NCBI RefSeq assembly: GCF_016861605.1
Contig: NZ_BOLM01000013.1
Span: 1-64,000 of the forward strand
DNA length: 64,000 nt
Direction: 5' to 3'
DNA from: Levilactobacillus wangkuiensis
GTDB lineage: Bacteria; Bacillota; Bacilli; Lactobacillales; Lactobacillaceae
The position numbers were made by a program, and so were the translations under genes. The notes below the pieces were generated by a model, which had not been told where the DNA came from, did no database searches, and saw nothing but the letters and a program-made list of their open reading frames with translations. Shown here one piece after another: positions 41,684-62,169 of this stretch (position 1 is the first letter of the stretch; every line of letters begins with the position of its first letter).

Positions 41684-41985
41684 CGGGTTAAACTGGTGTA
41701 GCATCGCCTCCGGGCTGGTGAAAATGGGTCGTGACGTGGTCCTGGTCGCTCCCGACGGCGGACTCAAGGTGTCCTGCTATGGGGCCGGTTCCAGCCTGAG
41801 AAGCGGTCTGGAACCTCGACTTTGAGCCAAAGAACGGTCTCAAAGGTCGTCCCGCGGACTAGGTTGGGCAAGAACCCCAACCAAGACCGCCGACACAGCT
41901 GGACACCTTGGTCCGCCTCTGGTCGCTGACATTGGCCGCGTAGGTTCATTTTCAGTAGCCCTGCGGCTGACACGGGTTTAACCCG
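41684..41985 (-). repeat. Family A structured repeat, copy A3 (large subtype)
   Basis: 302 bp bounded by perfect arms CGGGTTAAAC/GTTTAACCCG. Read on the minus strand it has the large-subtype order: CCGCAGGGCTACTGAAAATG, then CAGCGACCAGAGGCGG, then a TTGGGG..CCCCAA hairpin, CCAGACCGCTTCTCAGGCTGG, and a GCCCGGAGGCG end. Confidence 0.85.
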
Positions 41986-42078
41986 TAAGTTGGTGAGTGG
42001 TTGGCTAACTAGTTTATCTGGTTCGTTGGATAAATGTGTGGCCATGTATTTCTCAATAATTAATCATAAACAACGTAA

Positions 42079-42122
42079 TCAAAAAGCAGCAGCTCACCCA
42101 AGTGGTGGACTGCTGTTTTGGT
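42079..42122 (-). terminator. Terminator of the 554-residue surface protein
   Basis: AAAAGCAGCAG..CTGCTGTTTT hairpin in the minus-strand 3' region. Confidence 0.75.
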
Positions 42123-42216
42123 TTACACAGAAAGTAGATAATCGACGTCACTAACGCAACGGATGTTGGTCAGATGGGTAAACACAATGTTAGCCATGAG
42201 GGCGGCCAACAATGGG

Positions 42217-43881
42217 CTATTTAACCGTCTGAACCAGCTTCTTGTTAGCGGTGACGTAGGTGCCATTGGTGAGGACGAACCGGGTCGTCAGGTTGTGAGC
42301 CACAATTTTCTTCACCTTGAGAATCTGGCCTTGACGGTAGTGGTGGCGCTTGCCCGTCAGTGTTTTCTTACTATAGGCGTTGACGCCGGCTTTGTTGATC
42401 ACGGTGATCTTAGGTTGCTTCTTAGCGTAGTACACGCGAGTGGTGTAGCGGCTGTTGGCCGTGATGTAGCCGGTCTTGCCAGCCGTCTTACTGTGGTGGT
42501 TGACGTCCTTCACGCGGTACCGTTTGACACCGTTCTTGGATTTGGCGTAGCCGGTGACGACAAACATCGGCCGGTTTTGCCGGGACTTTTTCGCGTACCA
42601 TTGTTTACGAGCCTTTTTAGTGAAGGTGGCTGACCGATACAGGCCAATCTTCTTTGTGGCGTAAACGACTGTGCCCTTGGGTGCGACAACTGCGGCCCCG
42701 GCACCACTCGTCAGGATGGCCTGATACACGTAGGTGACGGTCTGCGCCTGGCTGGTAAATTTACCAGTGGCGTTGGTTGGTGTCGTCTTTAAGGTATAGT
42801 TGGCAATCTTCAGTGCGGTACTCTGGTAGCCCGCACCCAGGTCACCCGTCAACGTTTTGGCCGGGGCGATTGCCTTGCCAGCGGTATCGACGTAACGAAC
42901 CGTTACGGGTTGACTGGTCACGGGGTCTGGGTCAGGCGTCGGCTGTGGGTCGGGAGTCGGATCTGGCGTCGTGGTTGGTGGCAGCAATGCGTCATCGAAA
43001 CTGAAAATTTTGAATTCGATGGCCATCAGGAGGCCACTGATTTGGTAGGTGCCATCTCCTTGTGGTAACAGGAAGTCAGCCATCGGTTGATTCAAGGCCC
43101 GTTCCGTTTCCGCCGCGGAGATTTCTGGATTCAATTGGGCCAATTGTTCGTTGGTATACTGGCCTAGGTAGTTCGCTTGGATGAGACCGGGAAATAGCTG
43201 GGTGTAGAGCATGTTCTGAATATATTGGTCTTCAAAATTTTCTTGCGCAGCGAACATGGAGTCATACTGGTTCATAACGCTGGCGTCCGCGCCAGTGGTA
43301 ATCAGGTAGTCACGCAAGAAACTGTGGTAATCCGACTGCATTTGCGCATAATTACTTTGATTGATTTGGTATTGCGCAAGATTCTTCAGCCACCAGGTGG
43401 TGATGAAAGTGCTGAGGCGGCTACTTTCAACATAGTCGGTGGCGCTAGAAAAGTCCTCGGTATTCTGGATGTATAAGAATTCGCCAACAGTCGTGTCCTT
43501 GGCAATGGTTGGGTCGGCGTAGAGGCCTTGATAAATATAAGGCAGGCTAGCGGCCATGTCGTCGTTATTGTTGTATTTGACGAAGCTCCCCATGTAGGTG
43601 GTATCTACTAACTGGCCCACCGTGAGGGCGTTAGGACCACCGGTAGGGTCAACGGTCATATCCTTTTGGAACCAGTAGTCCTTGGTAACTTGCTGGTTCG
43701 CAATCAGTTTCGTGTACGGCAGTTCAACGGAGTTAATGGTGTAGGTTTGTTTGGCAGCTGGTGTCGTAGCGGTCGAGACGGCGGTGGCGGCTTCAGCGTG
43801 AATGACGCTGGGACTGAGAATCCCACCAAATAAAATCATGGCAAGACTCGCGGTCACGAGTTGTCTAAAGCCCCTAGTCAT
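42217..43881 (-). CDS. Secreted surface protein with MucBP-like and DUF5776 modules
   Basis: 554 residues. Signal peptide 1-29 (LVTASLAMILFGGILSP..HAEA). An N-terminal helical region of unknown fold (30-310) follows, then a Pro/Asp-rich linker (TTTPDPTPDPQPTPDP), a MucBP-like module (VTVRYVDTAGKAIAPAKTL..QTVTYVYQ), and repeated SH3-like DUF5776 modules (YRVKDVNHHSKTAGKTGYITANSRYT, NGTYVTANKKLV) that bind the cell wall. Tandem paralogue at 44.2-46.0 kb. No LPXTG motif. Confidence 0.82.
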   Translation of the reverse strand: MTRGFRQLVTASLAMILFGGILSPSVIHAEAATAVSTATTPAAKQTYTINSVELPYTKLIANQQVTKDYWFQKDMTVDPTGGPNALTVGQLVDTTYMGSFVKYNNNDDMAASLPYIYQGLYADPTIAKDTTVGEFLYIQNTEDFSSATDYVESSRLSTFITTWWLKNLAQYQINQSNYAQMQSDYHSFLRDYLITTGADASVMNQYDSMFAAQENFEDQYIQNMLYTQLFPGLIQANYLGQYTNEQLAQLNPEISAAETERALNQPMADFLLPQGDGTYQISGLLMAIEFKIFSFDDALLPPTTTPDPTPDPQPTPDPDPVTSQPVTVRYVDTAGKAIAPAKTLTGDLGAGYQSTALKIANYTLKTTPTNATGKFTSQAQTVTYVYQAILTSGAGAAVVAPKGTVVYATKKIGLYRSATFTKKARKQWYAKKSRQNRPMFVVTGYAKSKNGVKRYRVKDVNHHSKTAGKTGYITANSRYTTRVYYAKKQPKITVINKAGVNAYSKKTLTGKRHHYRQGQILKVKKIVAHNLTTRFVLTNGTYVTANKKLVQTVK

Positions 43882-44112
43882 TTTTGAACACTCCTTTTAC
43901 TTTTTGTCCTATTATCTAGTAGCAGTATATCATGGATAGGGGACTAAAAGCTATAACAATCGCCCATATAACGGCGATTATAGCTAGTCTGGTAAATGAT
44001 TTTAACGGTCGTTAATCAGTTGAATTAACATTGCACAGATTTTATATAATGGGTTAACGTGAGAAGGCCATTTCCATGGCGATTGCTGCAAAAACTGGGA
44101 GAAATCCGTAAA

Positions 44113-44147
44113 AAATAAGCTCCGACCAGTAGGGCCAGAGCTTCATT
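44113..44147 (-). terminator. Terminator of the 620-residue surface protein
   Basis: AAGCTC/GAGCTT stem with interior GG/CC pairs, upstream of a T run on the minus strand. Confidence 0.55.
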
Positions 44148-44160
44148 TCAAGGATCCTCG

Positions 44161-46023
44161 TTAACGAACGGTTTTCACCAGGTGCCGGTTAGCGGTGATG
44201 TATCCGCCAGCCACGTGGTACCGTAGCGTGTCGTGCTTACTGAAATTATTGGCATTTGAGTAAGCCCAGCCGCGGACGGCTAATTTGGTGCCCTTCTTGA
44301 GGTGTCTATTCTGCTTGGTGAGATTAACGTTGCTGTAACGGTTGATGGCGTGTTTCGTCTTGATCTGCCGTGGCATCGTGACTTTGCCCGCCTGAACCAG
44401 TTTCTTGTTAGCGGTCACGTAACGGCCATTCTTGAGAACGAAGCGAGTCGTTAACTTGTTGGTAACCACTTTCTTAACGGTCAGCGTTTGTCCTTGACGG
44501 TAGTGGGTCTTTTTGCCAGTTAACGTCTTCTTGGCGTAACTGTTGACCCCGGTTGGATTGATCACCGTCACGGTCTTGTGCTTAGCCGCATAGTAAACGG
44601 GCGTGGTGTAGGCGTTGTTGGTCGTGAGGTACCCGGTCTTGCCAGCCGTCTTGCTGTGGTGGTTGACGTCCTTGACGCGGTACCGTTTGACGCCGTTTTT
44701 AGAGGTCGCGTAGCCGATGACCACAAACATCGGCCGGTTCATCCGGGACTTCTTCACGTACCAACGCTTCAGGTTCTTCTTGGAGAAGGTGGCCGTCTTG
44801 TAGAGACCGACCTTCTTGGTAGCGTAAACGACGGCGCCCTTAGGAGCCAGCGTGTTGGTCTCAATGGTGTCGGCCGCCGAACCGCTTTGCAGCGTGCCTT
44901 GCTTGGTGTACACGTAGGTCACGGTCTGCGCCTCGCTGGTAAACTTGCCAGTGGCGTTAGTGGGTGTCTTGCTCAGCTTGTAGCCAGCGATGTTCAGGGC
45001 GTCACTCTGGTAGGTGGCATCCAGGTCGCCGGTCAACGTCTTGCTGGGCGCCAGGGTCTTACCTTGGTCATCAACGTAGGTCACCGTCACCGGTTGGCTC
45101 TTGGCAGGCGTTGGTGTCGGCGTTGGGTCGGGGATGACGGGGTCGGGCGTACCAAAGTTTAGAAATTGGAAGCTACCTGACATCAGTCCACTTACTTTAT
45201 ATGAACCATCGGGAAGTTTAGTGTAGTAATTGGAGAGGGGGGCTAACCACAGCTTTAATTGCTCATTGATAGTCTTAGCGGGGTCGAGTTTGATGAACTG
45301 CTCATCAGAAATCTTGCTAAAAAGTTGATTTTCTTTGAGCATGACATAATCGCTTTCGTATACTTTAGTCAGCTTATCGTTAAAGGTTTCTTCTGGGTAT
45401 TTTCCAGGATTGTAGGCGTCAATAATTGATTGAGGTGTGTCTAGTTCGACTAGTTCAGGCGTGACATTTTCTGCATAATCCTTAATAACATCCTCGCGAT
45501 TCATAATATTCAGGCTTAAGTTTACGTGCACATACGCATCCCAAAGCTTCACGTAAGAGTCTAGGAGCGCCCTTTTTGCAGCGTCCTCTGCGGTGAAACC
45601 ATTACCAGCCGGTCCTGCAGAAGCTAGCAGAAAGTCTGCATAGGATTCCTTGGGACCCGCTGTAATTTCACTCATGGCGATTCCAAGCATGCCGTCTCTA
45701 ACGTCATTAGAATCACTGACTGTGTTTTCTGGATGATCAGCGATAAACTTTGTCATGTAGTCGTCATCGTTGAGCTGTTCAGTTGTTAAAGAATCTGGCC
45801 AACCAGTAACAATTGGGGTCTTCTTGATGCCGCTGGTTGAAGAAATCAAAACATATGGTGTTTCGACGGCACCAACGTGATAGGTAATTTTGTCGTCAGC
45901 TTTAGTCGTAGCTGTGACAGTATCTGTCGAAGAATCCGCGTAAGCCACCGCTGGTGTGGCCACGCCCCCTAATAAAATCAGTGTGAAGGTGGCAGTCATT
46001 AATTTGCTAAGTCCCCTAGTCAT
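44161..46023 (-). CDS. Secreted surface protein, paralogue with extra SH3-like module
   Basis: 620 residues with the same plan: signal peptide (MTATFTLILLGGVATPAVAYA), N-terminal helical domain (30-290) quite diverged from the neighbour, PDPTPTPTPAKSQ linker, MucBP-like module, and three SH3-like DUF5776 modules, one more than the neighbour. The C-terminal modules are far more alike between the paralogues than the N-terminal domains, pointing to domain-wise divergence. Attached non-covalently to the wall by inference. Confidence 0.82.
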   Translation of the reverse strand: MTRGLSKLMTATFTLILLGGVATPAVAYADSSTDTVTATTKADDKITYHVGAVETPYVLISSTSGIKKTPIVTGWPDSLTTEQLNDDDYMTKFIADHPENTVSDSNDVRDGMLGIAMSEITAGPKESYADFLLASAGPAGNGFTAEDAAKRALLDSYVKLWDAYVHVNLSLNIMNREDVIKDYAENVTPELVELDTPQSIIDAYNPGKYPEETFNDKLTKVYESDYVMLKENQLFSKISDEQFIKLDPAKTINEQLKLWLAPLSNYYTKLPDGSYKVSGLMSGSFQFLNFGTPDPVIPDPTPTPTPAKSQPVTVTYVDDQGKTLAPSKTLTGDLDATYQSDALNIAGYKLSKTPTNATGKFTSEAQTVTYVYTKQGTLQSGSAADTIETNTLAPKGAVVYATKKVGLYKTATFSKKNLKRWYVKKSRMNRPMFVVIGYATSKNGVKRYRVKDVNHHSKTAGKTGYLTTNNAYTTPVYYAAKHKTVTVINPTGVNSYAKKTLTGKKTHYRQGQTLTVKKVVTNKLTTRFVLKNGRYVTANKKLVQAGKVTMPRQIKTKHAINRYSNVNLTKQNRHLKKGTKLAVRGWAYSNANNFSKHDTLRYHVAGGYITANRHLVKTVR

Positions 46024-46345
46024 TTAGCACACTCCCTTTACTTTTATTCTATTTATTAAATGCAGTATACCATGAGTTTGGCAATAATTGCTAGTGTAAA
46101 TCGTATTATGACGGCATTCATGAAGATTGAATAAAAGCTTAATGTGTAAATGTAACCGCTTAAATAAAATTGCACACAATTGATGTAATGGCAAAAGGGC
46201 GGAACGGTTTTGGCCCGGGAAGTTCCGTGGGGATGGTAAGTTGAACCAAATAACGCGTTCAAAACTGATGAGGTCAGTCTTTTTGAACGACGATAGTTGT
46301 CTTTGAATTTATCGACCGATTAGTTGACTAGAAAAACCAAGGCAA

Positions 46346-46387
46346 ATAAAAAGCGTCGTTCGGCTCCGAGGAGTCAAACGACGCTGT
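46346..46387 (-). terminator. Terminator of the YczE-like gene
   Basis: AGCGTCGTT/AACGACGCT hairpin with T run on the minus strand. Bases 46024-46345 contain only the surface-protein promoter area and no gene I can support. Confidence 0.75.
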
Positions 46388-46424
46388 AGTAGTTAAATGA
46401 GAAAAATGTTAGTAAATTTTGAGG

Positions 46425-47081
46425 TTACACATCCACATGATGTTTTAACTGGGGGAAAACGTGGTAATCCGCCCAACCCATGACGATTCCCTGGGTGACC
46501 AGCGCCCAAACCGTGCCGAAGCCAATCGCGTGTAACTCGCCCGTGAAGATGTAGGAGAGAATGATGATCAGCAGGGGTGGCGCGTAGCTGGCCCACTGGG
46601 CAATGATGGCCGATCCGCGCAGGTATTTGAACCGCAGGATGTAGGCTAGATCGTCGTTAGGATGCATAATAATATTACACCGGTTATAAATGGACACGGC
46701 AAAGGCCACGCCAAACAGGCCGATGATATCGACGATGACCCGCCCGGTTAACGGCAGGCGGCCGACGCCAATCCAGTTCCAGAAGTATCCGATCCACTCG
46801 ACCAGATAACTGAAGGGGATGATGTATAGCAGGTTAGAAATAAAACGCCTGCGGTCAAATTGTCCCAGTAATAGTTGGTTCAACAAGGTAATCACGATGC
46901 CGTACATGAATAGGGTGGTTCCCAAGGGGACGTTGATCCAGTTGGCCAAGTTGACGGAAGACCCCGTCCAGACGGCACTCCCGAGGTTGGTTGAGATGGT
47001 TAAAGCGTTAGCGGCTGAGTTCAGGACGATAGAGAAACCCAAAAAGCGCATGCGTTGCCCAAAGTCCTTCATTTTTGCCAC
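46425..47081 (-). CDS. YczE/YitT-like integral membrane protein
   Basis: 218 residues from GTG at 47081 (GGAGGCGA, 8 bases upstream). Five or six hydrophobic segments with the family marks LGFSIVLNSAANALTISTNLGSAVW, GRVIVDIIGLFGVAFAVSIYNR and HPNDDLAYILRFKYLRG. The family has no settled function. About 80 bases separate it from the amidotransferase-like gene upstream; the two may share a transcript. Confidence 0.8.
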   Translation of the reverse strand: MAKMKDFGQRMRFLGFSIVLNSAANALTISTNLGSAVWTGSSVNLANWINVPLGTTLFMYGIVITLLNQLLLGQFDRRRFISNLLYIIPFSYLVEWIGYFWNWIGVGRLPLTGRVIVDIIGLFGVAFAVSIYNRCNIIMHPNDDLAYILRFKYLRGSAIIAQWASYAPPLLIIILSYIFTGELHAIGFGTVWALVTQGIVMGWADYHVFPQLKHHVDV

Positions 47082-47162
47082 TGATGCTCGCCTCCGATTT
47101 TTTTGCTACAAGGTCTAGTGTATAGGAAGTGGCGGCCAATGAAAAGGCCCTTTACCACAATT

Positions 47163-47888
47163 TTACATGCGCGCTGCGGCCCGGTCGACGAAATTTTGGA
47201 AAATTTGCCGCGATTCGGCATGGTGTTTGTACATGTTTTCTGGGTGCCACTGCACACCTAAGATTTGATCGGTGTCCTTGGATTCCAGGGCTTCGATGAC
47301 CTGGTCGTCGGCCGTCGCCGTGACGCGTAGACTTGGCGCGACAGCCTTGATGGCCTGGTGGTGGCGGGAATTCACGTAGGGCCGGTCGCCAGTTAGCGTC
47401 GCCAGTGTGCTGCCGGGAACGACGGTGACGTGGTGACTGGGTTGGTTGCCCATGGCGGCCTGACTGTGTTTGAGCTGAGCCGTGGGGTCCTCGCTCAAGT
47501 CCTGGTAGAGCGTGCCACCCAGGCCAACATTAATTAATTGAAGGCCGCGGCAAATACCAAGAATAGCCTTGTTGGCGGCAACCGCCTGCTTCAGCAGTTC
47601 GATTTCAAATAAATCACGCTTGCGGTAGGTCTTGCCTAACCGGACGTGCGGTTCCTCGCCAAAGAAGGTCGGGTCAACGTCGGCGCCACCCAAGAAGGCG
47701 ACTCCGTCAAATAGGGACAGGTAATCGGCAACGTCTTCGGGGTCGATACTAGGTAAAATAATGGGCAGACCGCCAGTTTTGACAATGGCTTCAACGGCCG
47801 GTCGGGGCGCAAAGGCCGCGTTTCTTTCATTAATAATGTTCGTCGCCTCGTCGAGTGTGTCGGCGGGCAAAGCAATACGTGGACGCAT
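47163..47888 (-). CDS. Gamma-glutamyl-gamma-aminobutyrate hydrolase-like (peptidase C26)
   Basis: 241 residues, class I glutamine amidotransferase fold. Cys nucleophile in GICRGLQLINV, His/Glu in VQWHPENMYKH, plus GGADVDPTFFGEEP and NSRHHQAI. This matches PuuD-type hydrolases that release glutamate from gamma-glutamyl compounds. Substrate not proven. SD GAGAGGAAG; a Family A copy lies 24 bases upstream in the same orientation. Confidence 0.88.
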   Translation of the reverse strand: MRPRIALPADTLDEATNIINERNAAFAPRPAVEAIVKTGGLPIILPSIDPEDVADYLSLFDGVAFLGGADVDPTFFGEEPHVRLGKTYRKRDLFEIELLKQAVAANKAILGICRGLQLINVGLGGTLYQDLSEDPTAQLKHSQAAMGNQPSHHVTVVPGSTLATLTGDRPYVNSRHHQAIKAVAPSLRVTATADDQVIEALESKDTDQILGVQWHPENMYKHHAESRQIFQNFVDRAAARM

Positions 47889-47911: not shown

Positions 47912-48131
47912 GGGTTAAACTGGTGTTGTCAGCGCCTTACCGGGCGGCCCCAATCGACCGGAACGCGGTAGGCGAACGCACGGAGCTGAAGAGCGGTCTC
48001 CGTACTTACTTTGAGCCTCAAAGAGCGAGTTTCAAAGATGCCAGTGCTCTAAACGGCAAGGTTCACCGTTAAGAGCACTCCTACGGCTGAGTCGATTTGG
48101 GCCGCCCTCACGGCTAACACGAGTTTAACCC
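47912..48131 (-). repeat. Family A structured repeat, copy A4 (small subtype)
   Basis: 220 bp with arms GGGTTAAACTgGTGTT/AACACgAGTTTAACCC. The terminal stem in this copy is GGGCGGCCCAAATCGAC, a sequence very different from other copies but still paired. Core AGCCGTAGGA, AGTGCTCTTAA/..AGAGCACT hairpin, and CGGAGACCGCTCTTCAGCTCCG are present. It lies 24 bases upstream of the hydrolase start, same orientation. Confidence 0.85.
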
Positions 48132-48187: not shown

Positions 48188-48407
48188 GGGTTAAACAAAT
48201 GTTAGCCGCAGGGATGGTGAAAATGGGCTCAGCCGTGGGAGTTGCTTTAGCGGTTTACCGCTTAGGCAACTGATATCTTTGAGACGTGGTTTTCGGCTCA
48301 AAGTAAGCCCGGAGACCGTTCTTTGGCTCCGGGTGTTCGCCCACAGCGTCACGGCCCAATTTTCACCATCCCGGAGGCGTTGACAAAGACTAGTTTAGAC
48401 TTAACCC
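48188..48407 (+). repeat. Family A structured repeat, copy A5 (small subtype)
   Basis: 220 bp; GGGTTAA/TTAACCC outer arms and GGGATGGTGAAAAT/ATTTTCACCATCCC stem. Near identical to A6 but with an A-T pair where A6 has C-G. Inverted relative to A4, 56 bp away. Confidence 0.85.
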
Positions 48408-48528: not shown

Positions 48529-48792
48529 ATGATGACAGAACGGCAGTTGATTCAAGAAATTTTGAATTCCGAAGCGGTTGAATACAGTTTCGAAAACGTC
48601 GATGAAGACTCAAAAGAATACACGCTTTTATTGAAACGGCAAGACCAAGATGTTCGCGCCGTAGAGACAATCAACGATGAAATCAAGAAGTACTTCCAGA
48701 GCGCCAACTTCGATTACAAAGAAGAGTTGAACCCAGAAGGTGTTGACGACGATATTCGCTTGGTCATCAAGCGTAATAGCGACGCCAAATAA
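48529..48792 (+). CDS. Conserved small acidic protein, unknown
   Basis: 87 residues (or 86 from the second ATG at 48532), SD GCGAGG. No membrane segment. Charged helix-strand pattern: RQLIQEILNSEAVEYSFENVDEDS, then LLLKRQDQDVRAVETINDEIKKYF, then DDIRLVIKRN. The family is not recognised. It is monocistronic and flanked by two nearly identical Family A copies. Confidence 0.7.
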   Translation: MMTERQLIQEILNSEAVEYSFENVDEDSKEYTLLLKRQDQDVRAVETINDEIKKYFQSANFDYKEELNPEGVDDDIRLVIKRNSDAK

Positions 48793-48805
48793 ACAAAAGA
48801 GTTAG

Positions 48806-48840
48806 CGGCCAGCCACGTTTTTTGTGGTTGGCTTTTTTGA
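48806..48840 (+). terminator. Terminator of the 87-residue protein gene
   Basis: GCCAGCCAC/GTGGTTGGC with T6. Confidence 0.8.
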
Positions 48841-48959
48841 TTTGGTGATAGAGTTGGAGACAGCTAAGTCCCGAATTGATTGCGGTAGTTGTATAATTGA
48901 AAGCCTAGTGTGCACATTGTTAAGTAGAGCATTATTTACAATTGAAGTGTTATTTGGTG

Positions 48960-49175
48960 GTTAAACAAATGTTAGCCGCAGGGCTGGTGAAAATGGGCTC
49001 AGCCGTGGGAGTTGCCTTAGCGGTTTACCGCTTAGACAACTGATATCTTTGAGACGCGTTTCTTAGCGGCTCAAAGTAAGCCTGGAGACCGTTCTTTGGC
49101 TCCGGGCGTTCGCCCACAGCGTCACGGCCCAGTTTTCACCAGCCCGAAGGCGTTGACAAATCATCAGTTTAACCA
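48960..49175 (+). repeat. Family A structured repeat, copy A6 (small subtype)
   Basis: Arms GGTTAAAC/GTTTAACC; stem GGGCTGGTGAAAAT/..TTTTCACCAGCCC; core CAGCCGTGGGAGTTG, AGTTGCCTTAGCGG/CCGCTTAGACAACT hairpin, CTTTGAG/CTCAAAG hairpin, GGAGACCGTTCTTTGGCTCC hairpin. Directly upstream of the glycosylase gene. Confidence 0.87.
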
Positions 49176-49196
49176 AAGAAATAGGGAGAGAATCGG

Positions 49197-49847
49197 ATGA
49201 CAATTGAAGAATTATACCGCGAAATGGGCAAGCAGATGGGCCCACAACCCTGGCTGAAGCCCGGAACACCTTGGGCCGAGACGCCGGTTGAAATTATGTT
49301 GGGCGCCATTCTGGTGCAAAACACCAATTGGCGCAACGTGGAACCGTCCCTGATCAATCTAAAACGAGAGACCGGGTTCGTGCCCGCTGAGTTGCGAAAA
49401 TTAACGCCGGCGACGATCACACCCCTGATCAAGACCAGTGGCTTCTACAATCGCAAGGGACCCGCCATCCTGGCACTCGCTGACTGGTTAGGCCAAGCAG
49501 ATGATAATCTAGACGTGTTGAAGCACCGTGACGGGGCTAGTCTACGCCAAGACCTAATGAGCATCACCGGTATCGGCAACGAAACGGCCGATTACATTTT
49601 AATGTACACGCTGGACCACGGCATCTTCATGGTCGACACCTACGCCCGCCGACTGTTCACGTGGCTGGGCGCAACAATGCCCAAGACGTACCCGGCTTTT
49701 CAAAAGAAAGTCCTTAGCCAATTTCAGTTGGAACTGGCGGACTATCAGGAGTTTCACGCGCTAATTGACGAGTTCGGCAAGAAAATCAAGAATGATGCGG
49801 ACTTTGAGAACTCGTTTCTAGCGGGTCAAAAGCTAGTTGTGGACTAA
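49197..49847 (+). CDS. HhH-GPD DNA glycosylase (endonuclease III-like), no Fe-S cluster
   Basis: 216 residues, SD AGGGAGAG. HhH motif SITGIGNETADYIL (about 120-133) and catalytic Asp in FMVDTYARRLFTW. The Lys of endonuclease III lyases (GVGRKTA) is Glu here, so glycosylase activity without lyase activity is expected. No C-terminal Cys cluster. Role: base excision repair in the cytoplasm; the base removed cannot be predicted. Confidence 0.85.
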   Translation: MTIEELYREMGKQMGPQPWLKPGTPWAETPVEIMLGAILVQNTNWRNVEPSLINLKRETGFVPAELRKLTPATITPLIKTSGFYNRKGPAILALADWLGQADDNLDVLKHRDGASLRQDLMSITGIGNETADYILMYTLDHGIFMVDTYARRLFTWLGATMPKTYPAFQKKVLSQFQLELADYQEFHALIDEFGKKIKNDADFENSFLAGQKLVVD

Positions 49848-50000: not shown

Positions 50001-50218
50001 GGTTTAAGCGGATGTTAGCCGGAGGGTGGGGGAAAATGGTCTCAGCCGTGGGAATTGCCTTAGTAGCGGGTTGGGCTGCTTAGGCAATTGGTAGCTTTGA
50101 GACTCGTTCTTAGAGGCTCAAAGTAAGTTGGTAGACCGCACTTTGGCTACCAACGTCCGCCCACAGCGTTCCGGTCCATTTTCCCCCGCCCGGAGGCGAC
50201 AAACCATCTGCTCAAACC
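50001..50218 (+). repeat. Family A structured repeat, copy A7 (small subtype)
   Basis: Outer arms GGTTTaAGCgGATG/CATCtGCTcAAACC. Terminal stem GGGTGGGGGAAAATGG, complementary except one G-U wobble, again a new sequence. Core AGCCGTGGGAATTGCC, TTGCCTTAG..CTTAGGCAA hairpin, CTTTGAG/CTCAAAG and TTGGTAGACCGCACTTTGGCTACCAA hairpins. Upstream of glpK, same orientation. Confidence 0.85.
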
Positions 50219-52972: not shown

Positions 52973-53279
52973 GGTGGGTCTTTGTCATTGCCTCCGCGAT
53001 GGTGAAAATGAGCCGGGACGCGGTGAGCAAACAAGTCGTTCCCGGCGGCAGACTCAAGATACCCTGCTGTGGGGAACGACTCCAGCCTGAGGAGCGGTCT
53101 TCCGTCTCGCCTTGGAGCCTGAAATTCACAGTCTCCAAGGTCGTCCCATGGTCTAAACTGAGAAAATCACTCAGTCAAGACCATCGACACAGCTGGGTAT
53201 CTTGGCCTGCCTCTGGTCACTGATACTTACCCAGCTGGCTCATTTTCACCATCCCTGCGGCGAAGACTGGCCTAACCTA
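52973..53279 (-). repeat. Family A structured repeat, copy A8 (large subtype)
   Basis: A perfect 17 bp stem GATGGTGAAAATGAGCC with its complement closes it. Read on the minus strand: GTGACCAGAGGCAGGCC, TACCCAGCTGTGTCG, CTTGACTGAGTG/..CTCAGT hairpin, GGGACGACCTTGGAGACTG hairpin, GAAGACCGCTCCTCAGGCTGGA, TTCCCCACAGCAGGG, then CGCCGGGAACG. Upstream of the DUF368 gene, same strand. Confidence 0.85.
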
Positions 53280-54734: not shown

Positions 54735-54980
54735 TGGCATGGTGAAACTGCACTAGCCTTTCGTTCCCGACGGCGGATTCAAGTTGCCCTGCTGTGGGGC
54801 CGGTTCCAGCCTGAGAGGCGGGCTTCCACCTCAACTTTGAGCCTGAGAAGCGGTCTCAAAGGTTGTCCCGTGGGCTAAACTGAGAAAACCACTCAGTTAA
54901 GACCACCGATACAGCTGGTCAGCTTGATCCGCCTCTGGTCACTAACATCGGCCAGGCTTTTTCACCCGACACATGGTGGG
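54735..54980 (-). repeat. Family A structured repeat, copy A9 (large subtype)
   Basis: Minus orientation, with the large-subtype order (GTGACCAGAGGCGGATC, CAGCTGTATCG, GGGACAACCTTTGAGACCG, GAAGCCCGCCTCTCAGGCTGG, CCCCACAGCAGGG). Terminal stem partly degraded (GGTGAAA/TTTCACC). Its end lies 15 bases before the toxin SD, so it is the toxin 5' region. Confidence 0.75.
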
Positions 54981-56410: not shown

Positions 56411-56533
56411 CAACAAAGGCGAAGGTGTTCGAGCACCCCCGCCAATGGCAGAGTCGTTATTCACGACCGACAGTTATAAACCGAACAAAAATCGTCCTAA
56501 ACCGTCGTAAGTTTAGAGGGCGATTTTTTATTT
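56411..56533 (+). ncRNA. Antisense RNA (antitoxin) of cassette 2
   Basis: Extended -10 TGGTATACT (56397-56405), then the same 120-base body as cassette 1 with GGCGAAGGTG..CACCCCCGCC and GTCGT/ACGAC hairpins, and terminator AAATCGTCCT..GGGCGATTTTTT, overlapping the toxin gene end. Function inferred. Confidence 0.6.
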
Positions 56534-56683
56534 GTCTGGATGTTTAAACTTGTGCCACGTCTTTTGTAACTTAACGATAGCCTTAACGAAGCTCGTCAAT
56601 CGATGCACCAACAAAGTACAGAGCGATATCAAAACAACGCCAAATGCGAGTAGGTCAAGTAACGTGACAGCTATCCAAGACAA
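56528..56683 (-). CDS. Type I toxin-like hydrophobic peptide 2
   Basis: 51 residues from TTG at 56683, again 6 bases after AAAGGAGG. It differs from peptide 1 at a few residues (DLLAFG, TSFVKAIVKLQ, WHKFKHPDK), with the membrane segment and basic tail conserved. Same neighbours: SDR paralogue, antisense RNA, large Family A repeat upstream. Confidence 0.7.
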   Translation of the reverse strand: MSWIAVTLLDLLAFGVVLISLCTLLVHRLTSFVKAIVKLQKTWHKFKHPDK

Positions 56684-56699
56684 GGCAACCTCCTTTCGT

Positions 56700-56955
56700 T
56701 TGGTATGGTGAAACTGTACTGGCCTTTCGTTCCCGGCGACGGATTCAAGTTGCCCTGCTGTGGGGCCGGATCCAGCCTGAGAGGCGGGCTTCCACCTCAA
56801 CTTTGAGCCTGAAAAGCGGTCTCAAAGGTTGTCCCGTGGGCTAAACTGAGAAAAACCACTCAGTTAAGCCCACCGACACAGCTGGTCAACTTGATCCGCC
56901 TCTGGTCACTAACATCGGCCAGACGTTTTCACCAGCCATATGGTGGGGTCACCCA
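56700..56955 (-). repeat. Family A structured repeat, copy A10 (large subtype)
   Basis: Minus orientation, near copy of A9: GTGACCAGAGGCGGATC, CAGCTGTGTCG, CTTAACTGAGTGG/..CTCAGTTTAG hairpin, GGGACAACCTTTGAGACCG, TCAGGCTGGA, CCCCACAGCAGGG. Terminal stem imperfect. Directly upstream of toxin 2. Confidence 0.75.
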
Positions 56956-57055
56956 GTCTGCCTATTGGTTGAGAGCGTTGTATTAAGCATTATGTGGTCT
57001 GCGATAACGGGTTTTGTATTCTCGCGTTTAACGTCTAAAACAATAATCATCTGCA

Positions 57056-57103
57056 CCAAAAAAGGATTGATTCAGTCATCAAAGCTGAGTCAATCCTTTT
57101 CGT
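57056..57103 (-). terminator. Terminator of the DUF2628-like gene
   Basis: AAAAGGATTGA..TCAATCCTTTT hairpin; a duplicate of the one at 55072. Confidence 0.75.
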
Positions 57104-57138
57104 TTAGGTAAAATTTAGTAACCGAATCCCTAAGCCAC

Positions 57139-57645
57139 TTACTCTTTGGGTTGGGACCAGTAATGGGTCCGCGTTAAGAGGTCGCGTGACCGCGCATCTG
57201 CTGGGCGGAAACCGCGGTTGAATAGGTGCTTGAAGTACATCAGGTTGTAAAGTGATCCCCACACCAGTCCGAAGAACAGGGTGAAGGAGGAGTTGATGAT
57301 CACGGCAAACTGGCTGGCAGTCGTGGTCATCGATAGGAGCATGAACGCGCCCAACTCAACTCCGACAATACAAAGGAAGTTGTACCAGTCCGCCCGAAAA
57401 ATACTAGGGAGGGGACTGAAGAAGAACATCGTCCACGAGAAACCAACCTTGGCGATCCGCATATTCCCCGTCTCAGGGTTAACGACGGTCGCATAGTTTG
57501 GGGGTAACGGCAGTCCTTGAGGGCCGTCACCATTTTGATTGTTTTGATCATCGTCATCGTCGTTAAAGCCCTTGAAAGGATCTTGCATGTCATTTGCCAA
57601 CTTTCTAAAAATTCGATAGGTATCATTGATTTGGTGTTTGTCCAA
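57139..57645 (-). CDS. DUF2628-like membrane protein
   Basis: 168 residues. The frame opens at a TTG (57645) with no clear SD, so the start is uncertain; an internal Met at residue 20 is possible. Asp/Asn-rich linker (FNDDDDDQNNQNGDG), a motif KVGFSWTMFFFSPLPSIFRADWY, and three membrane segments. The K-x-G-F-S-W motif suggests the DUF2628/HrgC-like family. Function unknown. Confidence 0.7.
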   Translation of the reverse strand: MDKHQINDTYRIFRKLANDMQDPFKGFNDDDDDQNNQNGDGPQGLPLPPNYATVVNPETGNMRIAKVGFSWTMFFFSPLPSIFRADWYNFLCIVGVELGAFMLLSMTTTASQFAVIINSSFTLFFGLVWGSLYNLMYFKHLFNRGFRPADARSRDLLTRTHYWSQPKE

Positions 57646-57747
57646 ACATCGGGGGGTACTAGTAATCCAATTAATCCGTTAAGCAGATAATAGATTGCAA
57701 ACTACAAGGTAGTCATTCACAAGTACGCACGTGGAAAATATTCCAGT

Positions 57748-58044
57748 GGGTCATCAACCAGCATGAACCGAGCAGGTAGTGAAAATATCACGACCCATGT
57801 GAGTGACCAGAGGCGGGTCAACCTGACCGGCTGTGTCGGTGGTCTTGGCTGAGGTTCTTGCTCAGCCTAGAGCACGGGACGACCTTGGAAACTCGCGATT
57901 TTCAGCGAGGTTTCAAGTCGAGGCCCCAGACCGCTCCTTAGGCTGGAGCCGTTCTCCACAGCAGGGCTGGTTGAACCCGACGCCGGGAACGGACTGGATA
58001 GCGACTTATTTTCGCTACCCGGTCAGGCGGCTAGTTCAGGACCC
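57748..58044 (+). repeat. Family A structured repeat, copy A11 (large subtype)
   Basis: Outer arms GGGTC/GACCC; GGTAGTGAAAAT stem; large-subtype interior: GTGACCAGAGGCGGGTC, GGCTGAGG..CTCAGCC hairpin, ACGACCTTGGAAACTCGCGA hairpin, CCAGACCGCTCCTTAGGCTGG, TCTCCACAGCAGGGC. Plus strand. It lies between two minus-strand genes. Confidence 0.8.
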
Positions 58045-58098
58045 GTAACCGATGTTTAACTAAAAGTCTAACACGAAAAGTGCATGCTACCTATTAAT

Positions 58099-59655
58099 CT
58101 ATTGACGGCGACTAAGTTTAACGACCGCTTCGCACCGGGCCGTTTGGGGCATCATGTCCACGGACTGGATGTAATCAACCTGGTAATCGCTGGTTAATTT
58201 GACCAGGTCCTTGGCCAAAGTCGAGGGGTTGCAGGAAATGTAAACGAACTTCTCGGGGCGCACGCCAAGGATGGTATCGATCAGCGCGTCGTCCAGACCA
58301 GTACGGGGTGGATCGACCACGATTGCGTCCGGCCGGAAGCCCGCCATCAGCCATTTTGGCAACAGCTCTTCGGCGGTCCCAACTTCGTAATGGGCGTTGG
58401 TAATGCCGTTAGCGGCCGCGTTGGCGTTGGCATCGTCGACGGCTTCGGGGATGACATCCATCCCGCGAACCTCTTCGGCCACGTCGGCTAAGGACAGGCC
58501 AATCGTTCCGATACCGGAGTAGGCGTCGACCACGGTCTCGCCCGGTTGGAGGTCCAGGGCCTTCTTGGCCTCACCGTAGAGGACTTCCATCTGGCTCGGG
58601 TTCAATTGTAGAAAGGCACGAGCGGACAGCTTGAAAGATAGGCCGTCTAATTTTTCAGTAATCGCGTCGTTGCCGGCCAAATGCTTGGTCTCGTCGCCCC
58701 AGACCAGAGAGGTCTTCCCGGGGTTGACGTTTTGCATGACGGAGGTCACTTGGGGCAGCTCCGCGGCGATGCGGTCCAGCAATTCGTGCTTGCGGGGCAG
58801 CTTCTGGGAATTGGTGATGATGGTCAGTTGGACGTCGTCGGTGTGCGCGGCGGCCCGAACGACCAGCGTTTTCACGATACCGGAGCCGGCTTCTTCATCG
58901 TAAATGGGCATGTCCAGGTCTTGAAGCATGGCCACGACGGCGCGCATGACGGTCATGGTGGCGGGCATTTGCACGGAGCAGGTCGCCAGATCGACTAAAT
59001 CATGGCTGCGTTCGGCGTACAGTCCGGCTTCGATTTTACCGTCGGCGTTGCGCCGAACCTGGAATTGGGCCTTGTTGCGGTAGCCGTAAGGGTCGGTCAT
59101 GCCGAGCGTTGGCCGGAGATCGTAGCTGTGGAAACCTTGGGGTTGGTAGCGTTCCAGGGATTGGGCCACGATGTCGCGTTTGAAGGCCAATTGTTCGGGA
59201 TAAGCTAAATGTTCTAGCTCGAAGCCACCGACTTCATCGGCGTAGCTGTCGCGGGGTTCAACCCGGTGGGGACTGGCGAGGCGAATCCGGTGGACTTTGC
59301 CGCGTAAGTAGCGGTTTGCCACGTTGGTGACCTCGACGACGGCCTCTTCACCGGTCAGGGCACCGGGCACGAAGACGGTCATCCGCTTGTAGTAGCCGAT
59401 TCCCTCGCCGTTGATTCCCATGCGCTTGATGGTCAGTGGAAAACGTTGGCCAACCTCCACCTCGACGCTGGGCGCTTCCCGTTCCTGACGCCGGCGGTCG
59501 TTGTAGCCGCGGTCGTGGTGGTTGTCCCCGCGTTGGTCGCGGTAACTGTGCCGGTCATTGCGGTTACGGTCGTTGCTGTGCCGGTCTTGCCGGTCGCTAT
59601 GGTCGTGGCGGTTATAATTGTTGCCACGGTGATTATTGGATTCAAAGTTTGGCAT
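58099..59655 (-). CDS. 23S rRNA (uracil-C5)-methyltransferase, RlmD/TrmA family
   Basis: 518 residues. Residues 1-58 form a low-complexity Asn/Asp/Arg/His-rich extension. A TRAM domain follows (VGQRFPLTIKRMGINGEGIGYYK..VPGALTGEEAVVEVT), then the SAM-dependent domain with GETVVDAYSGIGTIGLSLA, VVDPPRTGLD and catalytic Cys in YISCNPSTLAKDL. No N-terminal 4Fe-4S Cys set, so it is of the RlmCD type, likely methylating U747/U1939 equivalents in 23S rRNA. Confidence 0.9.
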   Translation of the reverse strand: MPNFESNNHRGNNYNRHDHSDRQDRHSNDRNRNDRHSYRDQRGDNHHDRGYNDRRRQEREAPSVEVEVGQRFPLTIKRMGINGEGIGYYKRMTVFVPGALTGEEAVVEVTNVANRYLRGKVHRIRLASPHRVEPRDSYADEVGGFELEHLAYPEQLAFKRDIVAQSLERYQPQGFHSYDLRPTLGMTDPYGYRNKAQFQVRRNADGKIEAGLYAERSHDLVDLATCSVQMPATMTVMRAVVAMLQDLDMPIYDEEAGSGIVKTLVVRAAAHTDDVQLTIITNSQKLPRKHELLDRIAAELPQVTSVMQNVNPGKTSLVWGDETKHLAGNDAITEKLDGLSFKLSARAFLQLNPSQMEVLYGEAKKALDLQPGETVVDAYSGIGTIGLSLADVAEEVRGMDVIPEAVDDANANAAANGITNAHYEVGTAEELLPKWLMAGFRPDAIVVDPPRTGLDDALIDTILGVRPEKFVYISCNPSTLAKDLVKLTSDYQVDYIQSVDMMPQTARCEAVVKLSRRQ

Positions 59656-59894
59656 ATTTTCTCCTATATAAAACTTCAGTCATAAAGTGTCAGACACTTA
59701 CCGATTAACACGGTCCTAAACATTATACCAAACTTTAGCAGTCGCCGGGCCGTGGCCGGTTCGGAAATTAGTGGTGGCGTGCACCCACTAAGTCCCTGGT
59801 GACGATTCGAAAAATTGTGGAGTCGTTTCCATAGTGAAAGGACCGGCGTTTGGGTACAATTAGTGAGAACATTTCAAATGAGGAGGGATGACTC

Positions 59895-60542
59895 GTGAGT
59901 TTGATTGAATTGCAACATGTGGGCTACCAGGTAGACGATACGCCCATCCTACAAGAGATTAACCTGACCATCGATGCCCAGGAGTGGGTGACGCTGTCGG
60001 GACCGTCCGGCGGGGGCAAGTCCACGCTGGTGCGGCTGATCGCGTCGTTGCTGAGTCCAACCAGTGGGACGCTACTGTTTGATGGCCAATCGGTGGAAAA
60101 CTACGACCCCATCGCGTACCGGCGGCGGGTCTCGTACAGCTTCCAACAACCGACCCTGTTTGGGCAAACGGTACGCGATAACCTGAGCTTTCCGTATCAA
60201 ATCCGCCAGTTACCGTTTGACGAGGAACGGGCCGTTAGGGGACTGGCATACGTGGGATTGAGCGCCAGTGACCTGGACAAGGGTGTTAACGACCTGTCCG
60301 GTGGGCAACGACAGCGGGTCGCTCTGTTACGCAACGTGATGATCTACCCGGAAGTCCTGATCTTAGACGAGGTGACGGCCGGGCTGGATGCCGAGAACAA
60401 GGCGTTTGTCTGGTCTTTGGTCGAACATTTTAACCAGGATGACAACCTGACCATCATCGCTATCACGCATGACCAAGCGGAAATCGACGCGGCCAAACGG
60501 CTGGTGACCATTGAGAACGGCCGCATCGTGGGAGGTGCCTAA
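59895..60542 (+). CDS. ABC transporter ATPase, FetA/YbbL-like
   Basis: 215 residues from GTG (AGGAGGG SD). Walker A GPSGGGKST, signature LSGGQRQR, Walker B VLILDE and the H-loop AITHD are intact. A single short ATPase domain followed at once by the permease matches the FetAB iron exporter arrangement (E. coli YbbL/YbbM). Role: energising the neighbouring permease. Iron export inferred from family. Confidence 0.9.
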   Translation: MSLIELQHVGYQVDDTPILQEINLTIDAQEWVTLSGPSGGGKSTLVRLIASLLSPTSGTLLFDGQSVENYDPIAYRRRVSYSFQQPTLFGQTVRDNLSFPYQIRQLPFDEERAVRGLAYVGLSASDLDKGVNDLSGGQRQRVALLRNVMIYPEVLILDEVTAGLDAENKAFVWSLVEHFNQDDNLTIIAITHDQAEIDAAKRLVTIENGRIVGGA

Positions 60543-61301
60543 ATGAATTTAGCAGTGAATAATCAATCCTTGATGTTGGCGTTGGGGCTGGTCGTGATTG
60601 CCCTGGCAATCGGCTGGAAGGAAAAACTCGGCATCGACCGCGACATGATCATCGGGGTCGTGCGCGCTGTGATTCAACTGTTTGTGGTCGGCTATTTGTT
60701 AAAATACGTCTTTCGCCTCAATAATATTTGGCTAACGGCAATTTTGATTTTGATTATTATTTTCAACGCGGGCTACAACGCCAAACAGCGGAGTAATGGG
60801 ATTCCCAACGCTCTACCGATTTCAATTGGGGCCATTCTGATCAGTACCGGCGTGACGCTGGGCGTGTTGATGCTGGCCGGCGCCATCAAGTTCATTCCGA
60901 GCCAGATGATTCCCATCTCGGGGATGATTGCCTCCAACTCGATGGTCGCGATTGGCCTGTGCTATCGCAACCTCAACGCCCAGTTCAGACAGGAGCGCCA
61001 GGCCGTGCTGGAAAAATTAGCATTGGGCGCGGACCTGAAGGATGCCTCCAGGGAAATCCTCCGCGACAGCATCAAGACCGGCATGCAGCCGACGATTGAT
61101 TCCGCCAAGACCGTGGGTATCGTGAGTTTGCCGGGGATGATGTCCGGTCTGATCTTCGCGGGCGTCGACCCGGTGCGGGCGATTAAATATCAAATCATGG
61201 TCACCTTCATGCTGATGTCGGCGACTAGTATTGGGTCGGTGCTGGCGTGCTACTGGGCCTACCGCGGCTTCTACAATGATCGTAAGCAGTTAACGGTTTA
61301 A
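60543..61301 (+). CDS. ABC permease, FetB/YbbM-like
   Basis: 252 residues; ATG follows the ATPase stop at the next base (TAAATG). Seven hydrophobic segments are visible. Family signs: IIGVVRAVIQLFVVGYLLKYVF, PISGMIASNSMVAIGLCYRNL and PGMMSGLIFAGVDPVRAIKYQIMVTFM. Predicted UPF0014 (YbbM) membrane subunit for metal export. The last five codons form an arm of Family A copy A12. Confidence 0.9.
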   Translation: MNLAVNNQSLMLALGLVVIALAIGWKEKLGIDRDMIIGVVRAVIQLFVVGYLLKYVFRLNNIWLTAILILIIIFNAGYNAKQRSNGIPNALPISIGAILISTGVTLGVLMLAGAIKFIPSQMIPISGMIASNSMVAIGLCYRNLNAQFRQERQAVLEKLALGADLKDASREILRDSIKTGMQPTIDSAKTVGIVSLPGMMSGLIFAGVDPVRAIKYQIMVTFMLMSATSIGSVLACYWAYRGFYNDRKQLTV

Positions 61302-61518
61302 GCTTGTCGTTGGTGGCGCCTTCCGGGTGCTGAAAAATAGGCCGGAACGCTGTGGGCAGGACGCCCGAAGCCTGAGGGGCGGTCTTCAGGCTCGCTTTGA
61401 GCCTCCAAGGGCGAGTCTCAAAGTCGCCATTTCCTGAGAAGAACACTCAGAAAATCCCCCGGCTGAGCCTATTTTTCAGCACCCTGCAGGCCTACATGGT
61501 GAGTGTCGTTAACTGCTT
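61284..61518 (-). repeat. Family A structured repeat, copy A12 (small subtype)
   Basis: Perfect outer arms AAGCAGTTAACG (61284-61295, inside the FetB coding end) and CGTTAACTGCTT (61507-61518), then a perfect 18 bp stem GGGTGCTGAAAAATAGGC with its complement. Minus orientation. Inner: CTGAGTG..CTCAGG hairpin, CTTTGAG/CTCAAAG-like hairpin, CTGAAGACCGCCCCTCAGGCTTC. Confidence 0.85.
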
Positions 61519-61939
61519 GCGGTTATGGCTTCATTGGGTTGTTGTGTGGTGGGTTTGATGTTGTGGTTGCGTTTTACTCAGGTAGGGAACAAACTAGTTT
61601 TTACCGACACAAGAAGAGATTGGGTTGTAGAAGGATTTTCTCCAGGGTAACTGCCACTTGAGCTTAATCATCAGGTGATTTGACCCGAAATTCGGAACGA
61701 TTTATCTAGATTTTCAGTCGATACTTTCCAATTAGTAGTTCGCTACATTATTTGGTCAAATCTATTTTCCCAATAATCCCATAAAAGATGTCAGATTAAT
61801 TGCAATCGCTTACTAAAACTGACTATTCTAAAGGCAAGCAACTTTGATGACGGACCATCTAATAACGATGGTCGTTAGAGCTAGTTCAAATAAGACTGAC
61901 ACACAATAGAAGAACGAAGAAAAAAGACAAACGAGGCGT
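61519..61939. other. Non-coding stretch, no gene seen
   Basis: No start-SD pair, no conserved repeat and no obvious hairpin. It contains a weak cre-like TTGCAATCGCTTACT near 61799. Nothing else stands out. Confidence 0.5.
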
Positions 61940-62169
61940 GGTTCTGGGGTTGGGCTTCGGAACCGGAGGCTGAATAGGTTCAGAGACCTGTGACAGTGGT
62001 GTTAGTCGGCGTTTTTTAGCCGGCTTACAGCACGGGCCGACCTTGGAAACTCGCGAACCTTAGCGAGGTTTCAAGGCGCCACTGAAGACCGCCTTTTGGC
62101 TTCAGTGGGTTGCCCCACAGGCGGGAGAACCTAATTCAGCCGCAGGTGGAGAAGCACAACCCCAGAACC
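61940..62169 (+). repeat. Family A structured repeat, copy A13
   Basis: Outer arms GGTTCTGGGGTTG/CAACCCCAGAACC, then a CTGAATAGGTT/AACCTAATTCAG stem. The middle (AGCACGGGCCGACCTTGGAAACTCGCGA) is nearly that of A11, and CACTGAAGACCGCCTTTTGGCTTCAGTG and GCCCCACAGGCGGG are the conserved end parts. A hybrid of small and large subtypes. Upstream of SDR 3. Confidence 0.8.

Follow-up and report, generated by a model that had tools for sequence, protein, structure and literature searches.

The window, a 64,000-nucleotide stretch of the draft genome of Levilactobacillus wangkuiensis, carries 13 copies and one fragment of a structured repeat, as located by a covariance model of the element (R1) together with nhmmer. 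The element is about 200-300 bp long and exists in at least two core types, besides a third variant. An earlier sequence-only reading had arrived at the same total; its count of 10 copies at 41.7-62.2 kb is here corrected to 11. R1 was built from 56 type-1-like copies, including two from the window (2577 and 26940), and places cores on the main strand at 2577, 26939, 41755, 47940, 48211, 48981, 50024, 53045, 54770, 56734, 57812, 61324 and 61964, two weak reverse-strand matches that echo the palindromes being left out of the count; nhmmer added the fragment at 17564-17681. The elements, with the state of the same sites in relatives, are as follows.

2554..2770, + strand: type-1 copy (R1, nhmmer)
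17564..17681, + strand: type-2 fragment (nhmmer)
26920..27115, + strand: type-1 copy (R1, nhmmer)
41685..41984, - strand: type-2 copy whose 3' end is 2-3 nt away from the stop of the + strand gene 39823-41682; the site carries type 1 in L. lanxiensis (L174)
47916..48131, - strand: type-1 copy; only an arm remnant is left in L. lanxiensis
48188..48397, + strand: type-1 copy; type 2 at the same site in L175 (G026)
48959..49167, + strand: type-1 copy; in L175 (G026) the site holds type 2, lacking the 3' arm
50002..50203, + strand: type-1 copy; third variant here in L175 (G026), and an element-free intergenic region of 112-118 bp in 6 of 12 other species (L176, L180, L182-L185)
52977..53277, - strand: type-2 copy; L176-L180 element-free, with 129-160 bp intergenic
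54736..54966, - strand: type-2 copy within a local duplication; no element found at the corresponding place in the two sister species
56700..56942, - strand: type-2 copy within the same local duplication as 54736..54966
57755..58022, + strand: type-2 copy; intergenic region only 25-26 bp in L177, L179 and L180
61298..61488, - strand: type-1 copy, 3' end overlapping the end of the + strand frame 60543-61301
61940..62188, + strand: third variant with a type-2-like core (nhmmer 25 bits, R1 54.5 bits), ends set by eye

Distribution of the family

Dense as the stretch at 41.7-62.2 kb is, the clustering is not peculiar to those 20 kb, the family being genome-wide. A 264-kb sample of the same genome, non-random in that its C3 and C7 stretches were chosen at earlier matches, holds 53 copies, with elements making up 4.5% of the sequence, and L. 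brevis has at least 150 copies. Such per-genome copy numbers are lower bounds, because at most 13-150 candidates were scored per genome. A covariance search of lactobacillus genomes, as the sequence-only reading had advised, matched 33 of 35 Levilactobacillus genomes (G021 and G031 gave no R1 match) and, more weakly, nine genomes in four sister genera of the same family. Among eight alignments shown from these other genera, GC-N-GUG is kept in seven and the unpaired GUUCC in five.

That no named family had been recognised holds for Rfam: at gathering score over the whole window, Rfam 15 returned a TPP riboswitch and nothing else, at a place outside the elements, and over 41.6-62.3 kb, with E allowed as high as 5, it gave nothing at or above gathering score. 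Carriage by plasmids or phages was rejected, as neither the plasmid records (type 1, type 2 and an L. brevis copy), at least two of them from the genus, nor the phage records (type 1) gave a match at E 1e-5. The two enzyme families searched, RVT_1 and Y1_Tnp, yielded no autonomous partner. A reverse transcriptase was rejected as the obligate driver since RVT_1 matches occur in 10 of the 35 genus genomes and are absent from 25, against 33 genomes with the element, the window's own genome having two such matches. Y1_Tnp is found in 23 of the 35, including G021 and G031, the two without R1 matches; a Y1/RAYT transposase was likewise rejected on the strength of zero Y1_Tnp matches in the window's own 56-contig draft. 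The family is apparently undescribed: no recognisable account of it came up in the literature searched, most subscription journals and preprints lying outside its reach, and the available passages of PMC3049150, PMC10969869, PMC2267715, PMC3609814 and PMC4377027 do not recognisably describe these repeats.

Fold, covariation and strand

The folded strand forms a closing stem, a core helix in which AGC-GTGGG faces CCCAC-A-GCG, and hairpins, a GACCG...GGC loop being present in some of them. As had been proposed from the window alone, the closing stem varies while its pairing is retained, with 96.8% of cells paired and changes on both sides in 42 of 55 pairs. The covariation score of 0.500 compares with 0.180 (sd 0.006) for shuffled and 0.06-0.09 for slid versions, the control keeping the relatedness among copies. 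Mismatch tolerance is also asymmetric: G-U outnumbers A-C by 108 to 30 among 56 copies, by 64 to 32 when pairs are derived from the opposite strand and by 56 to 33 in orthologous copies (p=0.019). An excess of G-U over A-C on one strand means that one strand is folded, and either RNA or ssDNA fits. The exception is the type 2 closing stem, where A-C exceeds G-U (102 vs 55). In both types change is less frequent at paired than at unpaired positions (0.029 vs 0.089 in type 1, 0.074 vs 0.143 in type 2).

Core swaps, truncated copies and element-free sites

Six sites carry cores that have been swapped between sister species with the arms of the locus retained on one side or both, and in strictly matched pairs the type differs in 1 of 22 (G020) and 4 of 15 (G026). 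Relatives also have element-free counterparts of occupied sites. Most presence/absence differences have no assigned direction, among three sister species no insertion stood out as clearly new, and at the sites compared with element-free relatives no consistent direct target duplication was definable by eye.

Tandem copies that are 3'-truncated and have a duplicated 5' flank are common, and the mirror image is rare. Orphan 5' arms number 25 against 3 orphan 3' arms, and 26 orphan 5' arms inspected by eye over 330 nt looked like truncated copies rather than the ends of a larger element; 3'-truncated copies have a same-strand neighbour downstream in 45 cases and upstream in 6, and tandem pairs repeat the 5' flank. 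Raw truncation is polar in type 2 (53 3'-truncated vs 14 5'-truncated), with no such polarity in type 1 (18 vs 25). The first interpretation of the window, a selected RNA structure or a mobile element spread through structure, thus stands in part. Covariation beyond the relatedness control and the G-U excess support a selected single-strand structure, the type 2 closing stem being the one exception, and the polar, truncated tandems and the core swaps agree with spread through structure.

Gene ends and outer arms

Among 200 copies, 86 have an element-facing stop codon no more than 20 nt from the 3' end, and none has one that close to the 5' end; gene ends were taken from reading frames of 100 aa or longer, not from annotated genes. 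In L. brevis, measured from the closing stem, a facing stop codon occurs at a distance of 100 nt or less at the 3' side of 9/30 copies and at the 5' side of 0/30. For 99 of 184 copies, about half, no gene 3' end is directly adjacent. At 30 sites between codirectional genes the element runs with the transcript 17 times and against it 13 times (10 further sites are convergent and 10 divergent); this lack of fixed orientation removed a cis-regulatory mRNA leader from consideration. A replication-linked strand bias in L. brevis was rejected as weak, with 87-89 of 150 copies co-oriented (p 0.03-0.06) when the terminus is set at 2.0-2.15 Mb from the GC skew of 20 samples, and p 0.09-0.57 at other terminus positions.

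The outer arms pair and yet differ at each locus, in agreement with the sequence-only reading: self-pairing is 22.3 vs 13.5 (sd 3.8) across copies for type 1 (132 copies) and 23.8 vs 13.6 (sd 3.6) for type 2 (49). Pairing extends to the flanks beyond the element ends (16.2 vs 11.6, sd 2.75; 200-208 copies) and takes in gene-end sequence. In this clade the arms pair in part because the 5' flank partly repeats the 3' flank in inverted form, and compensatory selection, as first suggested, is not a sufficient description of them. Nor are they universal copies of host flank, a possibility excluded by site 22511, where host sequence is in neither outer arm, and by L. brevis, in which the inverted flank copy was not seen (15.0 vs 14.2, 30 copies). 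The 200-208 copies behind the flank and stop-codon figures come from loci fetched through type 1 or type 2 similarity or a type-1 pattern, among the matches listed, with copies near locus ends excluded and the same site from several sister species included, so that the p values do not refer to independent events.

Interpretation

Dispersal, covariation, one-strand bias, element-free sites in relatives, core swapping, 3' ends oriented at stop codons, inverted 5' flanks and 3'-truncated tandems with repeated flank together form the observed base from which we infer the function and mechanism of the repeat. They point to a non-autonomous, structure-dependent mobile repeat family with a BOX-like lifestyle, amplified by polar fold-back copying, an explanation that seems to us evenly poised between right and wrong. 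The 3' end of a folded strand would be joined to the target DNA before the other end, which would fold back through the closing stem and copy the target flank, so that the 5' flank becomes inverted. Synthesis that is interrupted or jumps could leave 3'-truncated units with repeated flank, and at a later stage ectopic gene conversion, using homology between closing stems, could swap the cores. The enzymes of host replication and recombination may be enough. A more specific version, offered tentatively and with more doubt than belief, is that the repeat may be a new class of bacterial SINE-like element, in which a structured single strand is inserted directionally at gene 3' ends, 3' end joined first, fold-back priming on its closing stem copies the target gene end in inverted form, and an unrecognised enzyme common to several related lactobacillus genera moves it.

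REP sequences near stop codons have been reported to act in the mRNA 3' region, and the fold could similarly serve the host after stop codons as an mRNA terminator, stabiliser or translation brake. The oriented placement (86/200 vs 0/200), the lesser change at paired positions in both types and the core strands retained in sister genera would all suit such a role; it is nonetheless unlikely, as transcription of the gene would yield the other strand, not the one that tolerates G-U, 99/184 copies lie away from gene 3' ends, 2/35 genus members have no R1 match, and truncated units and core swaps are common. Improbable too are pure DNA-palindrome dynamics, in which hairpins are cut or stall replication and fold-back template switching with ectopic repair perfects the arms and swaps the cores, with neither dedicated machinery nor function. 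Polarity (25 vs 3 orphan arms; 86 vs 0 stop codons) is unexpected from a near-symmetric hairpin, and the strand asymmetry and the core strands kept in other genera, including the unpaired GUUCC in 5/8 alignments, also argue against them, even if they would account for inverted flank copies, remnants of deletions and cores exchanged through short homology, and for the lack of an identified dedicated enzyme (RVT_1 and Y1_Tnp searched). An ordinary MITE, mobilised by a resident insertion sequence whose terminal repeats match its own, is very unlikely despite the high copy number, intergenic location and long terminal inverted repeats (closing stem and arms do pair), given orphan 5' arms that look like truncated copies, an own genome without a Y1_Tnp match (RVT_1 and Y1_Tnp being the only families searched), GC of 0.51-0.61 in the 13 window cores instead of AT-richness, and the absence of clear target duplication by eye.

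Bacteria commonly contain small interspersed repeats; how these spread is mostly unexplained, and the mobile repeat family favoured here keeps a readable record of it. New are the core swaps with locus arms kept, the 3' end at stop codons, the inverted 5' flank and the polar tandem truncation. Because swapped cores, truncated tandems, inverted gene ends and polarity have been recorded, the mechanism can be tested from sequence. For food-fermenting bacteria the family is also an addition to the catalogue of structured elements, and a very abundant one.

Comparison with known systems

Integron attC sites are shorter and lie in arrays, and were set aside on these grounds. Group II introns and retrons are large structured RNAs which target-primed or fold-back copying would resemble; unlike the situation expected for them, 25/35 genus genomes have no reverse transcriptase match and the window copies have no Rfam match. 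ERIC and Correia elements are bacterial MITEs, non-autonomous, structured and dispersed. The Levilactobacillus repeat shares these traits (see also the review PMC10969869). Unlike those elements, it is polar at gene ends, and comparison by eye and the RVT_1 and Y1_Tnp searches gave no consistent target duplication or parent IS. REP/BIME sequences are extragenic palindromes, often close to gene 3' ends, that depend on a RAYT (Y1) transposase. The Levilactobacillus repeat is likewise extragenic, palindromic and often at gene 3' ends, whereas REP units are far shorter and Y1-dependent, and the window's draft genome is without a Y1_Tnp match.

The closest likeness in lifestyle is to BOX, found in Streptococcus pneumoniae and S. 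suis, whose elements have boxA and boxC modules at the ends and a boxB array between them. According to the portions of PMC3049150 available, these are intergenic, high-copy and clustered, with a modular interior between conserved ends and a strong predicted RNA fold; about half of the insertions are common to all strains, and the authors judge BOX parasitic (PMC3049150). Compared by description, both families are intergenic, high-copy, modular, folded and clustered. Unlike BOX as described there, the Levilactobacillus repeat belongs to another genus, shows cross-genus covariation, one-strand bias and core swaps at fixed loci, and is oriented at stop codons, with inverted flank copies and truncated tandems.

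Copies in the window and their core types

The copies in the window were called from two nucleotide profiles of the structured repeat, one for type 1 (about 200 bp) and one for type 2 (about 285-300 bp). A covariance model (R1), derived from type-1-like copies, places 13 cores in the window; these include the type-2 copies and, at 61.94-62.19 kb, a third variant. The three variants thus share a homologous core, because the type-1-like model also recovers the other two. The sequence-only reading had described a cluster of 10 copies between 41.7 and 62.2 kb, and the clustering stands, though the number does not (11 by the profiles and R1). It had also recognised no named family, and Rfam agrees, giving no match to the window copies. 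The following features were also observed in the window:

10836-11140, 17214-17405 and 39274-39414: second, intergenic-looking repeat family of AAGAGTGCGGAACGAGCCG.. and GGATATAGGGGCGAGAG.. units, which reaches the gathering score of no Rfam family
24773-29312: a gene pair duplicated in tandem, products 532/527 aa and 143 aa
54319-57117: a stretch of about 2 kb duplicated locally, with one element per half, neither found at the matching place in two sister species
63076-63180: TPP riboswitch (Rfam RF00059)

Selection on a folded strand

Covariation was assessed over 55 pairs in eight helices, using 56 copies below about 86% identity. Of all cells 96.8% are paired, both sides have changed at 42 of the 55 pairs, and the covariation score is 0.500 against 0.180 (sd 0.006) after shuffling and 0.06-0.09 when partners are displaced by 1-3 columns, which leaves the relatedness among copies intact. 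The earlier proposal that the closing stem varies in sequence while pairing is kept is therefore upheld. Moreover, orthologues in sister species change less at paired than at unpaired positions (0.029 versus 0.089 for type 1; 0.074 versus 0.143 for type 2), and 24 double Watson-Crick changes separate orthologous copies.

A single folded strand should tolerate G-U more than A-C. On the strand with GACCG loops, G-U outnumbers A-C by 108 to 30 in type 1, by 64 to 32 even when the pairs are taken from a prediction on the other strand, and by 56 to 33 in orthologous pairs (p=0.019). Type 2 (63 copies) is less lopsided in total (161 to 132): its interior follows type 1 (90 to 30), while its closing stem is reversed (55 to 102). 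Selection on structure, as first suggested, gains support from the covariation and the one-strand bias; its assignment to RNA does not, since the asymmetry fits RNA and single-stranded DNA alike and the two cannot be separated by this test.

Insertion and core exchange

Syntenic regions of the sister species L. lanxiensis and L. mulengensis (91-95% identical in main anchors, 86% at edges) were compared at 34 clusters of the window's own genome in 125 kb. The element is present at 25 of 31 anchored clusters in the former and 23 of 28 in the latter. Loss and gain are often indistinguishable at the element-free clusters, some of which are deletions with remnants, such as that of L. lanxiensis at window 47.9-48.4 kb. 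More distant species have element-free sites, for example at window 52.9-53.5 kb (129-160 bp in five loci, L176-L180, versus 580 bp here) and 57.6-58.1 kb (25-26 bp in L177, L179 and L180 versus 454 bp). At six sites (S1-S6), type 1 in one species corresponds to type 2 or the third variant in another, with the same locus-specific arms on both sides at S1-S3 and an arm retained on at least one side at S4-S6. Where number and order are equal, the type differs in 1 of 22 pairs for L. lanxiensis and 4 of 15 for L. mulengensis, after setting aside, respectively, 5 and 6 clusters unequal in number or order, 3 and 6 clusters without an anchor, and 3 and 3 pairs that scored low. Together, the element-free sites, the sharing between sisters and the type differences therefore show that the elements are inserted DNA, predating the sister-species split at most compared sites, with cores exchanged since. 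Separately, one related genome has a 1773-bp interval with a long reading frame, TnpB-like by eye, where window 48790-49197 carries an element.

An oriented footprint

Four observations, namely orphan arms with truncated copies, tandem units with repeated flanks, stop codons and flank pairing, point in the same direction. Orphan 5' arms outnumber orphan 3' arms by 25 to 3. Among 71 3'-truncated copies, a same-strand neighbour lies within 200 bp downstream in 45 and upstream in 6; the corresponding counts are 1 and 2 among 39 copies truncated at the 5' end. Truncation itself is polar in type 2 only (53 3'-truncated versus 14 5'-truncated; 18 versus 25 in type 1). Of 44 tandem pairs, 42 have a type-2 truncated unit, cut at positions 71-112 or 217-261 in 39 of these, and in 33 of the 44 the next unit is of a different type. 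The locus-specific 5' flank recurs between tandem units (median local score 46.5 versus 15 for different-locus flanks), with 14 of 44 pairs above the 99th percentile of cross scores (67.9), a threshold probably inflated by orthologous loci in the set. At locus L006, three truncated type-2 units whose flanks are repeated precede a full type-1 copy; locus L165 has one.

The comparison of orthologous tandem sites covered ten sets, and at all of them units may have been lost by deletion between flank repeats. An extra truncated unit occurs in L. lanxiensis alone at X7 and X9 (versus two other clade species) and X2 (versus one), so that gain would be more parsimonious at these three; at X3 and X6 it is the window's own genome that exceeds the other locus in number of units.

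Of 200 copies, 86 have the stop codon of a frame facing the element no more than 20 nt from their 3' end, and none has one that close to the 5' end (95 versus 1 within 60 nt; 101 versus 21 within 200 nt). Where the 3' neighbour faces the element (113 copies), its stop is about 20 nt away or less in 85. For L. brevis (30 copies), 9 versus 0 have such a stop within 100 nt of the closing stem (p=0.004) and 3 versus 0 within 60 nt (p=0.25). Further, the flanks 0-40 nt outside the element pair with each other in 208 copies (16.2 versus 11.6, sd 2.75), a signal absent from the 30 L. brevis copies (15.0 versus 14.2). Of the 38 among the 208 that score at least 24, 19 have a frame 3' end close by, and it is always the 3' side of the element on which it lies; the 5' flank is thus an imperfect inverted copy of gene-end sequence. 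At site 22511, which also belongs to the window's clade, neither outer arm is host sequence.

Extent in the genome, genus and order

Searches of the window's own genome (3.14 Mb, 56 contigs) gave 262 type-1 and 369 type-2 candidate places, 40 being scored for each. In a 264-kb sample, partly picked at places with matches, 53 copies occupy 11,763 bp (4.5%), and three share more than 60 bp with a reading frame. L. brevis CD0817 has at least 150 R1 matches (150 of 150 scored candidates), all on the chromosome contig. Among the 30 best copies of L. brevis, most have a closing-stem sequence of their own, of AGTCCGCCAAATATGGGTTC type, unlike that of the window species, a pattern suggestive of bursts within lineages or of concerted evolution.

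The type-1 DNA query matches 29 of 35 genus genomes and none of 23 others, and R1 matches 33 of the 35. Under stricter filters, an order-wide R1 search found 13 of 295 genomes: this genus contributes three, four other genera of the same family contribute nine (best E in each 3.5e-8 to 2.1e-16), and one marginal match lies elsewhere (E 5e-4); the four genera are not matched in every member (one genome of genus g25, G176, has none). Eight sister-genus alignments keep the 5' core strand GC-N-GUG in seven, the 3'-strand CACAGC in four and unpaired GUUCC in five, while the closing stem diverges. No match was found in 72,556 plasmid and 50,697 phage records. A 20.8-kb IMG/VR viral contig has a single exact core match, either host flank or true carriage, and a 20-base pattern scan lists, among its matches, one contig titled Ferruginibacter paludis, possibly by chance or contamination.

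A possible mechanism

The 3' end of a folded strand may be attached to target DNA close to the end of a gene; the strand's free end would fold back through the closing stem and copy the flank, which would account for the inverted 5' flank. If synthesis were interrupted or jumped, 3'-truncated units could be left behind with that flank repeated after each, and ectopic conversion would swap cores afterwards. This is the simplest single scheme; we infer joining, fold-back priming and jumping from their supposed products, which alone are seen in the sequence. Host recombination alone could possibly make the footprint, but would not easily give its polarity. No partner enzyme emerged from the two families searched, reverse transcriptase (RVT_1, 10 of 35 genus genomes) and REP/RAYT-type transposase (Y1_Tnp, 23 of 35, with no match in the own draft genome).

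Relation to known repeats

We rate the family, which the features tested do not place among BOX, REP, MITE or retroelements, as a small interspersed repeat in which selection on structure is unusually strong and the footprint is oriented and fold-back-like. BOX elements are structured, modular and clustered, with about half of insertions common to all strains, and are judged parasitic (PMC3049150). In being structured, modular and clustered, the present family matches that lifestyle.
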